From assembly GCA_003551155.1 (NCBI GenBank), contig PUMA01000130.1, positions 1 through 52,075 of the forward strand: DNA of 52,075 nt. Reading direction: 5' to 3'. Shown here in pieces: positions 17,641 to 34,817 of this stretch. A program made the position numbers and the translations under genes. This DNA is from Desulfonatronospira sp. (lineage in GTDB: Bacteria; Desulfobacterota; Desulfovibrionia; Desulfovibrionales; Desulfonatronovibrionaceae). How positions within the stretch are numbered: the stretch's first letter is position 1; every line of letters starts with the position of its first letter. The notes under the pieces were generated by a model, which did no database searches, was not told the DNA's origin, and saw nothing but the letters and a program-made list of their open reading frames with translations.

Positions 17641-17800
17641 AACCAGTACTACTCAGGTTACAGGGCTCATGTTCAGGAATAATCGCGGGGGAAGCAGCGA
17701 GTACAGGCATTTTCACAGCTTCTGGCAGTGAATGATTTTCTATGGTTAAAGACCAATGGTTTTTCTTGCAGCTTAAATGGTCTTAAGGTAAAAATTTTTT

Positions 17801-17900
17801 GGCTCTTGGACGTATGCTGTGGATTTATTATTATGGCATTCTGGATAAAGCTTTTTATTTTTAACTGTGTGTAAAATCCACACGTTGCGTCGAGGAACCC
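17801..17900 (-). mobile_element. MITE-like element copy A (100 bp) with ~23 bp imperfect TIRs and an 8-bp target-site duplication AATTTTTT
   Basis: Starts ggctcttggacgtatgctgtgga; reverse complement of the other end is gggttcctcgacgcaacgtgtgga; flanks 17793-17800 and 17901-17908 are both aatttttt; ~90% identical to 32910-33005 in opposite orientation. Confidence 0.8.
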
Positions 17901-18003
17901 AATTTTTTATGGCAAAGGTTATTATGAAAGACAGGTCCACTTTTTGATTAATACTTATGTATACCGGCCCTGGTTAATGCCGGATGACTTTCAAGGTGAA
18001 ATT

Positions 18004-22382: not shown

Positions 22383-22653
22383 GGCTTCATCCTTTCCTGA
22401 TTTTGGTTCCTCTAAGTTTTCTGTGGAATGTTACTTCAAACCATGGCAGTATTTTCGTATCTCTGAAATCTGCAGTCATGGCCAGGCCTTCATGTTTCTG
22501 CTGCCTTGAGGTATAATCTGCACATTATGCAAGCCAGCTTCTGATGGATTCAATTTTCATTTATTCCACTCGGACTGGTGATGATTGTCTGATAATAATG
22601 GGTTGCCATGAGCGGGTCAGGCATTATATACAATTGTAAATTCAGGAGGAACC

Positions 22654-31948: not shown

Positions 31949-32887
31949 ATGCCAAGAAATTTTGCTTTATTGTCGGTATTGGCCTCGATTCTGACCCTGG
32001 GCCTTAAATTCGGAGCTTTCTGGGTCACCGGTTCAGTGGGGCTTTTGTCCGATGCTCTGGAAACCCTGGTCAACCTGACAGCCAGTATTGTTGCAGTCCT
32101 GGCCCTGACCATTGCCTTCAGGCCGGCAAATAAAAAATTTAATTACGGGCACGACAAGGCTGAGTATTTTGCCAGCGGCCTGGAAGGCGGACTCATTCTG
32201 GTGGCTGCGGGGGGAATAATCTACTCAGCCCTGGGTCGTCTCATTGCTCCTCAGGCGTTGGAGAACCTCGTCCTCGGAATCATCATTGCAGCTGTTGCAG
32301 CAGGCATAAATCTGGTAGTGGCCAGGATCATGATGAGAGCAGCAAGGCATTTTGATTCCATTGTCCTGGAAGGGGATGCCAAGCATCTGATAGCTGATGT
32401 ATGGACGTCTACAGGGGTTATTGTCGGGCTTTTGATCATTCTGTTTTTTCCTCAGATGCTCATCCTGGACTCCCTGATTGCAGTACTGATAGCTCTTAAC
32501 ATCCCCCGCTCGGGCATCAGTCTTATCAAGCGCTCCATGCATGGCCTCATGGACATTTCCCTGCCCAAAGAAGAGATTCAGATTGTGGAAAAACATATCC
32601 GTGCACATGCAGGTGAATCAGCAGCTTATCACGGCCTGCGGTCCAGGAAATCCGGATCCAGGAGGTTTATAGATTTTCATCTTTTGCTGCCGGGACACAA
32701 AACAATTCAGGAAGGGCATCGGATCTGCTGCCGCATTGAAAAAGGCATTGAAGAAGAGCTGCCCAGGTCCCAGGTAACCATTCACGTAGAGCCCGAGGAA
32801 GACAAGGCCTCCTGGGACGGGGACCGGCTGGGAGGAATAAAGAGCAAGTCTTCATCTGCCGATGACCACCACCCTGATGGAAAATAA
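31949..32887 (+). CDS. cation diffusion facilitator family transporter
   Basis: GSVGLLSDALETLVNLTASIVAVLALTIAFRPANKKFNYGHDKAEYFASGLEGG...; CDF signature and C-terminal cytoplasmic domain. Confidence 0.93.
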   Translation: MPRNFALLSVLASILTLGLKFGAFWVTGSVGLLSDALETLVNLTASIVAVLALTIAFRPANKKFNYGHDKAEYFASGLEGGLILVAAGGIIYSALGRLIAPQALENLVLGIIIAAVAAGINLVVARIMMRAARHFDSIVLEGDAKHLIADVWTSTGVIVGLLIILFFPQMLILDSLIAVLIALNIPRSGISLIKRSMHGLMDISLPKEEIQIVEKHIRAHAGESAAYHGLRSRKSGSRRFIDFHLLLPGHKTIQEGHRICCRIEKGIEEELPRSQVTIHVEPEEDKASWDGDRLGGIKSKSSSADDHHPDGK

Positions 32888-32909
32888 AACAGGATCCCGG
32901 GCTAATTTT

Positions 32910-33005
32910 CGGCTCCTCGACGCAACGTGTGGATTTTATATACAGTTAAAAATCAAAAGCCTTATCCAGAATGCCATAACAATTCCACAGCATACGTCGA
33001 AGAGC
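32910..33005 (+). mobile_element. MITE-like element copy B (96-97 bp) with ~23 bp imperfect TIRs and an 8-bp target-site duplication CTAATTTT
   Basis: cggctcctcgacgcaacgtgtgga...tccacagcatacgtcgaagagc; flanks 32902-32909 and 33006-33013 are both ctaatttt; ~90% identical to the reverse complement of 17801-17900. Confidence 0.8.
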
Positions 33006-34817
33006 CTAATTTTTGTAGCTGAGGCTGGCAAACTGCTCTATCTTGTCCTTGTAGGCCAGTATCCCCTGAGTCAGTCCCTTGGCCATGTATTCCAGAAAGT
33101 CATCGGATTGCAAAAGCCTCAGATCTCGCTCATTGGTCATGTAGCCGAGCTCAAGAAGTATGGAAGGCATTTTGGCTCCCATGAGCACATAAAACGGGGC
33201 CTGCCTTACACCATTGTCACCAAGATCAGTAAATCTGCCCTGGGCATGGCTTATAGTATTAGTGTGAACCTTCTGGGCCAGATTTCTGGACTCATTGATC
33301 TTGGAGCTGAGCATGAGGTCGGTGAGAATGTACTGCAGATCTGATATTTTCTGAGTGCTGACAGCATTCTCTCTGGCTGCCACCCTTTTGGCGTCCTCGG
33401 TTTTGGCAAAATTGAGATAGTACACTTCAAAGCCGCGGACATTGGGGTTGCGATGGGCATTGGCATGCACTGAAATAAAAAGGTCTGCTTTCTGGGAATT
33501 GGCCATGGCTGTTCTTTCTTCCAGGGGCACAAATACGTCCCTGGTACGGGTATACAGCACATTGAACCCCTGTTGCTCAAGATGGCGGCCCAGAATCCTG
33601 GACATTCGCAGCACCACGTCCTTCTCCTTGATTCCGTTGGATATGGCTCCCGGATCTTTGCCTCCGTGTCCGGGATCGATCATAATTGTTCTGACCTTGA
33701 GCCCCAGCTGCTCCACCAGGCTTCCCGCGGTCAGCTCTCTGCTTCTGGGATCCAGGGTTATTTGAGGCCCTCCCTCAAGGGTCCCCAAAACTTTTCTTTC
33801 CTCGGGGGCATAGACATCCACCACTATACGGAACGGGTTTTCCAGGGCAAAAACCCTGAAGTTATCCAGTTCGTGAATATCCAGAACAACCCTGGATTTG
33901 TCCTGTGTATGCTGAGCAGACCTTATGCGGCTCAAAATGCCGTCAGCCACTTTCTCTTCTCCAGCAATGTCTTCGCCCCGGCGGGTTTTTTCCAGGTCAA
34001 TAAACAGACGGTGTGGTGTGCCCAGGTCAGGATCAGGTTTGAGGAGCTGGTGATGGTAATCAACCTGCGAATCCAGGTCCAGGACCACCCGGGTATATTC
34101 GTCGCTGCTCCAGTGACGGATGGTGACCAGCCGGGCCTCCTCTGGCAAAATCCTGTCCTGATCCAGTGCGGGTTGAGAGCTGATCGCGGGAGGGGTCATT
34201 TCCATTAGTTTCATGGTCCCGCCTGGCTCAGGCTGATGACTGAACCCGGCAGCATCGGCCTCGTCTGTATACTCTTGTGCTGTTGCACCTCCGGCCCGCC
34301 TGATCTTCTCCAGATTTTTCCTGTCCAGCTCCTCTAAAACCTTCTGAGCTTCAGGCTTAAACCGGCTCTGGGAAAAATTATATACAACCCGCAGATATTC
34401 AATATATGCCTGAGCAGCGTCATGGTAATGATTCAGATGGAGGCCGGCTTTTCTGAACTGGGCTTCACCAGCCCGGTCGTGCAATGGGAATTCCCGGACA
34501 ACCCGGGTATAATAATCTTCAGCTTTTTCAAAATCAGCCCGCAGATAGGATCTTTTGCCAAGTTCTTCATGAGTTCGGCCAAGGTAAAAAAGAGCCTCAG
34601 CAGCGCTGGATTCGGAAGTGCTCTCCCTGTATGCCCGTTCAAAATAACCGGCAACCTCAAGCCAGTGCGAACGGTATTGAGCCCGGGACTCGTTTTCCAT
34701 GAGGGAATTGAAGCCCTGCAGGCCTTTGTGGTGGTCTGCATGGACAGCCCCGCCTGACAGAAACCAGACAGCCAGGAAAAAGAACAAAAAGGATAAAAGC
34801 GAATTTTTCTTGGGCAT
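33006..34817 (-). CDS. N-acetylmuramoyl-L-alanine amidase with TPR-like and AMIN-like N-terminal regions
   Basis: IMIDPGHGGKDPGAISNGIKEKDVVLRMSRILGRHLEQQGFNVLYTRTRDVFVPLEERTAMAN...SVHANAHRNPNVRGFEVYYL. Confidence 0.93.
   Translation of the reverse strand: MPKKNSLLSFLFFFLAVWFLSGGAVHADHHKGLQGFNSLMENESRAQYRSHWLEVAGYFERAYRESTSESSAAEALFYLGRTHEELGKRSYLRADFEKAEDYYTRVVREFPLHDRAGEAQFRKAGLHLNHYHDAAQAYIEYLRVVYNFSQSRFKPEAQKVLEELDRKNLEKIRRAGGATAQEYTDEADAAGFSHQPEPGGTMKLMEMTPPAISSQPALDQDRILPEEARLVTIRHWSSDEYTRVVLDLDSQVDYHHQLLKPDPDLGTPHRLFIDLEKTRRGEDIAGEEKVADGILSRIRSAQHTQDKSRVVLDIHELDNFRVFALENPFRIVVDVYAPEERKVLGTLEGGPQITLDPRSRELTAGSLVEQLGLKVRTIMIDPGHGGKDPGAISNGIKEKDVVLRMSRILGRHLEQQGFNVLYTRTRDVFVPLEERTAMANSQKADLFISVHANAHRNPNVRGFEVYYLNFAKTEDAKRVAARENAVSTQKISDLQYILTDLMLSSKINESRNLAQKVHTNTISHAQGRFTDLGDNGVRQAPFYVLMGAKMPSILLELGYMTNERDLRLLQSDDFLEYMAKGLTQGILAYKDKIEQFASLSYKN

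Follow-up and report, generated by a model that had tools for sequence, protein, structure and literature searches.

The element at positions 32911–33006 of the window, the whole 52,075-nucleotide stretch of Desulfonatronospira DNA analysed here, is very probably a non-autonomous miniature inverted-repeat element (MITE) of the ISL3 kind. Five features by which bacterial MITEs are recognized were found for this repeat: a length below 500 bp with no transposase gene or other coding capacity, imperfect terminal inverted repeats, target-site duplications of a fixed length (8 bp), at least about 40 dispersed copies, and empty orthologous sites in relatives. Its ends point to mobilization in trans by an ISL3-family transposase as the most likely way in which it has spread. 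ISL3-linked MITEs with GGCTCTTCG ends have already been published from Microcystis, and the element described here adds a member; reported from a cyanobacterium and an archaeon, such elements now extend to the Desulfovibrionales. The literature that we searched held no paper joining Desulfonatronospira with miniature inverted-repeat elements, and no description of this repeat was found.

Element boundaries and insertion at the amidase stop codon

The preliminary description of this DNA recognized two oppositely oriented copies of one element, matching at about 88 of 97 aligned positions, and the observation of the second copy is confirmed. Aligned with the reverse complement of copy 1 (17801–17899), copy 2 shows 89 identities, 7 mismatches and one 3-nt gap, and the genome search returned E = 7e-32 for the similarity of the two. 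Copy 2 is 96 bp long and lies on the minus strand, with its L end at 33006 and its R end at 32911. The L terminal inverted repeat, GGCTCTTCGACGTATGCTGTGGA (32984–33006, minus strand), is an exact match, and the R terminal inverted repeat, GGCTCCTCGACGCAACGTGTGGA (32911–32933, plus strand), agrees with the L end at 18 of 23 positions (16 of 23 in copy 1). Both window copies have the L end GGCTCTTSGACGTATGCTGTGGA and the R end GGYTCCTCGACGCAACGTGTGGA. The 96-bp element has no coding capacity, all six reading frames being too short for a transposase.

An exact 8-bp repeat had been reported to flank copy 2, and this sequence, CTAATTTT, is indeed present at 32902–32909 and 33006–33013, but by the family's boundary rule it sits one base off. 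In other copies (L011, L019, L023, L029, L034, L038 and L041, among others), exact 8-bp repeats stand directly outside an element of the form GG...CC. Because exact repeats flank GG...CC directly across the family, we place copy 2 at 32911–33006, with the duplications TAATTTTC (32903–32910) on the left and TAATTTTT (33007–33014) on the right, which agree at 7 of 8 positions. The exact CTAATTTT repeat is best read as a one-base shift that borrows the terminal C of the element. Under the same rule, the element ends with the base that serves as the G of the amidase TAG codon. The minus-strand TAG at 33006–33008 is kept under both boundary readings, and the earlier statement that the insertion preserved the end of the amidase frame stands.

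The stop codon that abuts the element belongs to a gene for an N-acetylmuramoyl-L-alanine amidase (AMIN + Amidase_3; 33006–34817, minus strand; PF01520, E = 1.4e-56). Its convergent neighbour encodes a cation efflux (CDF) transporter (31949–32887, plus strand; PF01545, E = 9.4e-38). This convergent pair (PF01545 and PF01520/PF11741) is syntenic in five genomes of the same genus (G001–G005) and two of the same family (G007 and G010). The gap between the two genes measures 10–63 bp in these seven relatives versus 118 bp in the genome studied here, and none of the seven gaps holds the element, making them empty orthologous sites. We firmly regard the copy 2 site as a lineage-specific insertion, and its likeliest effect is neutral.

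A possible role as a terminator or protein-binding site had also been raised for copy 2. A repeat domesticated by the host, whether as a bidirectional terminator, an RNA stem-loop or a protein-binding site, and selected at the convergent gap would suit an element that nearly fills the space between converging genes and that folds better than shuffled sequences on both strands (z = −4.1 and −4.9); in a plus-strand transcript, the stem would end with TAATTTTTG. We nevertheless consider this reading highly unlikely, as a strong fold is expected from terminal inverted repeats, the terminator scan found no intrinsic terminator at 32911–33006, no Rfam family matches the element, and the convergent gaps of relatives do without it. 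There is also no bias towards convergent gaps across the genome: among the 17 copies with both neighbours called, by crude longest-ORF gene calls, 10 lie between tandem genes, 4 between divergent genes and 3 between convergent genes.

Copies and target duplications across the genome

The host draft genome comprises 2.01 Mb in 197 contigs and is 94.5% complete. Within it, the R arm of the element occurs at at least about 40 places (49 aligned pieces among the matches listed), and the L-end sequence GGCTCTTCGACGTWTGCTGTGGA has at least 22 exact copies; these counts cover the matches listed by the searches and the fetched loci. Scanning the fetched loci gave 26 distinct complete copies with both ends, ranging from 94 to 332 bp. 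With a one-base offset allowed at one side, for copies and control alike, 13 of the 26 are flanked by exact 8-bp duplications and 18 by duplications agreeing at 7 or more of 8 positions. As a control, the left flank of each copy was set against the right flanks of the other copies: 0 of 650 pairs agreed exactly and 13 of 650 agreed at 7 of 8. The duplications of the 18 copies are 77% A+T, and the G+C content of the window is 50%. Some short copies have no recognizable duplication.

Transposition, which the preliminary description had claimed from the two window copies, is borne out by the copy number, by the exact duplications relative to the control, and by the empty sites in seven relatives. 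The genome-wide count and tabulation of flanks that it had proposed turned up further copies, and conserved synteny of both window copies was not seen. At occupied sites, the repeat is a record of recent transposition. One might suspect chance similarity or an assembly artefact, given that the draft is fragmented and that many contigs end inside long copies of the repeat. Both window copies, however, are internal to a 52-kb contig, and the E-value between them, the number of places and the 13 exact duplications already refute such an artefact, to which we assign next to no probability. Contig ends inside long copies suggest that the repeat itself probably fragments the assembly. A 123-bp copy found in L026 and L028, at the ends of contigs C94 and C170, has the same flank in both (tataaatagttcag), so these contig ends probably overlap.

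Probable affiliation with ISL3-family insertion sequences

The ends of the MITE, of the form GGCTCTTCGACG...TGTGGA, and its 8-bp duplication agree with those of complete ISL3-family insertion sequences (IS) of the same order. Complete IS of this order with PF01610 are 1339–1370 bp long and have ends of the GGNTCTTCGACG...TGTGGA / GGNTCTTCGACG...GTGGAATT type, and exact 8-bp duplications were found in three of them (L080, ATATTACC; L081, AGGCAAAT; L077, GTTAAAGC). In its GGCTCTTCGACGTTTGCTGTGGAATT variant, the family's L end agrees with the ends of these complete IS at 21–25 of 26 bases; for ISL3-type IS ends of the order, the L-end matches span 20–25 of 26, the closest being an end in G056 (GGCTCTTCGACGTTTGATGTGGAATT, 25 of 26). 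A 17-of-26 match is the best that unrelated 26-mers of the window achieve, save for one 20-of-26 place that resembles a decayed copy. The IS pair of G083 and G113 has unequal ends, as does the MITE here, with the R end GGTTCCTCGACGCGAGACGTGGAAAT.

Complete ISL3-family IS (G056 L046, G019 L075, G029 L081, G049 L080 and G083 L082) and the MITE are alike in their terminal repeats and 8-bp duplication, but these IS encode a transposase of 409–435 aa with PF01610, whereas the 96-bp element encodes nothing. Since it has no coding capacity, it is not an ISL3 IS; it would be an element working with one. Acting in trans, a DDE transposase of the ISL3 family would recognize the GGCTCTTCGACG...TGTGGA ends, excise or copy the element, and join it at an 8-bp staggered cut, mostly in AT-rich intergenic DNA. 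Copy 2 would have landed in the narrow space between the two convergent genes, directly at the stop codon of the amidase, and left its frame intact. The ends, the duplications, the copy number and the empty site are observed; we infer which enzyme acts, that it is active at present, and that the effect is neutral.

Similar associations have been described in two other hosts. In Microcystis aeruginosa PCC 7806, a 187-nt MITE has been attributed to ISL3-family transposases, and it resembles the element here in the GGCTCTTCG start of its ends, its 8-nt direct repeats, its stem-loop and its multiple copies (PMC11448079). It differs in host phylum and interior, and an IS with matching ends is present in its own genome, whereas none was found here. 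Methanosarcina acetivorans carries an ISMac21-related ISL3 MITE of 179 bp that is likewise short, ISL3-derived and present in several copies (PMC3852290). Its host is an archaeon; our element is shorter, at about 95 bp in the short form, and has at least about 40 copies.

The full-length transposase or parent IS with these ends, for which a search had been proposed, was not found in this draft genome. Bacterial MITEs usually have an autonomous partner with identical ends in their own genome, although such a partner does not strictly define them. The sole PF01610 match in the draft is a degenerate fragment of 61 positions, with at most about 55% amino acid identity to the ISL3 transposases of the order, and no Zn_ribbon_ISL3 was found there. 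The exact R end of the MITE was absent from all complete IS found, and plasmids and viral contigs, searched as parent carriers, gave no matches. Because the draft is incomplete and its 197 contigs break at repeats, the parent is possibly missing from it. We considered the ISL3 transposase remnant on contig C42 as the parent and rejected it: it covers 61 profile positions only, and an ISL3-like end (L042:479) lies about 1.3 kb off with no other transposase match between.

Mobilization by a transposase from outside the ISL3 family, one that likewise generates 8-bp duplications, would fit a draft genome with no parent ISL3 IS, as well as the distribution of the exact R end GGNTCYTCGACGCAACGTGTGGA, whose hits were confined to three MAG contigs from soda lakes, with none among viral contigs. 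We judge this origin very improbable, given how closely the L end matches the ends of ISL3-type IS of the same order, whose duplications are of equal length, and given that an ISL3 MITE in Microcystis likewise has the GGCTCTTCG start and 8-nt repeats (PMC11448079). An ISL3-family enzyme is therefore the mobilizing agent that we favour as most likely.

G018, G020, G033, G049 and G211 also contain MITE-like elements, 261–285 bp long, whose ends are related and some of which are flanked by 8-bp duplications. The G211 element, at 285 bp, has an L end identical to that of the MITE, and the fetched stretch around it contains no ISL3 transposase.

Modular long copies

Long copies of the element, 149–332 bp, differ from the short form by a stretch inserted at its middle, following AATGCC. 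Their pieces generally succeed one another as L end - X - A - (D or E) - C...C' - B - A' - R end; the palindromic ones among them, A/A', C/C', D and E, vary in presence and placement from copy to copy. The B piece is inverted in L017 and L022 relative to the others. Nested palindromes are seen in the long own-genome copies L019, L029, L040, L087 and L099 (149–332 bp). In nearly all own-genome loci where the contig extends far enough, copies of the interior adjoin ISL3-type ends, and module D is also present in G001, G002, G004, G005 and G018.

This nested modular build is the least ordinary feature of the family. Growth by concentric insertion, producing palindromes within palindromes inside one ISL3-type end pair, is a possible though on balance doubtful explanation; if true, the element family would preserve a history of successive insertions at the tips of hairpins. 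The 96-bp form may be ancestral, or it may be a collapsed derivative. The long forms offer material for studying the growth of internal palindromes in bacterial MITEs.

The element in other MAGs

Among GTDB genomes, the exact R end occurs in the Desulfonatronospira MAG contig PWSL01000198, whose insertion is shared by a contig from the same-genus genome G006; on this basis, the DNA of the window was assigned to Desulfonatronospira (Desulfovibrionales) as its inferred genus. The same element is carried by a Dehalococcoidia MAG contig (L107, PWRA01000153) and an Ignavibacteriales MAG contig (L108, PWJF01000219) from the same CSSed sediments, which we take to be soda-lake sediments. We do not accept the exact R end in these Dehalococcoidia and Ignavibacteriales MAGs as evidence of transfer across phyla. 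The Ignavibacteriales contig L108 has the insertion flank gttctttatcct of the Desulfonatronospira contig L106, which makes mis-binning likelier than transfer.

Other copies in the window

Copy 1 (17801–17899, plus strand; 99 bp) lies between a dnaA-like gene and an HcyBio gene, which are divergent and were named by Pfam. Its target duplications are AATTTTTT at 17793–17800 on the left and AATTTTTT at 17901–17908 on the right, the latter preceded by an additional C (17900). Six same-genus genomes yielded an HcyBio locus, and scanning these loci for the end motifs gave no pair of element ends; the printed upstream stretches of HcyBio in G004 and G005 likewise hold no element. No dnaA-like neighbour turned up beside HcyBio in the same-genus genomes; with synteny at copy 1 thus unconfirmed, we regard this site as a lineage-specific insertion less firmly than that of copy 2.

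About 44 bp separate copy 1 from the called HcyBio start downstream of it; the copy lies in a divergent promoter region and could affect expression from there. A further trace of the element lies at 22405–22530 of the window, where an element end, GGTTCCTCTAAGTTTTCTGTGGAATGTTAC, survives in decayed form: it agrees with the L end of the family at 20 of 26 positions, and a weak R-end-like stretch follows about 110 bp on. This place is probably an old third copy.
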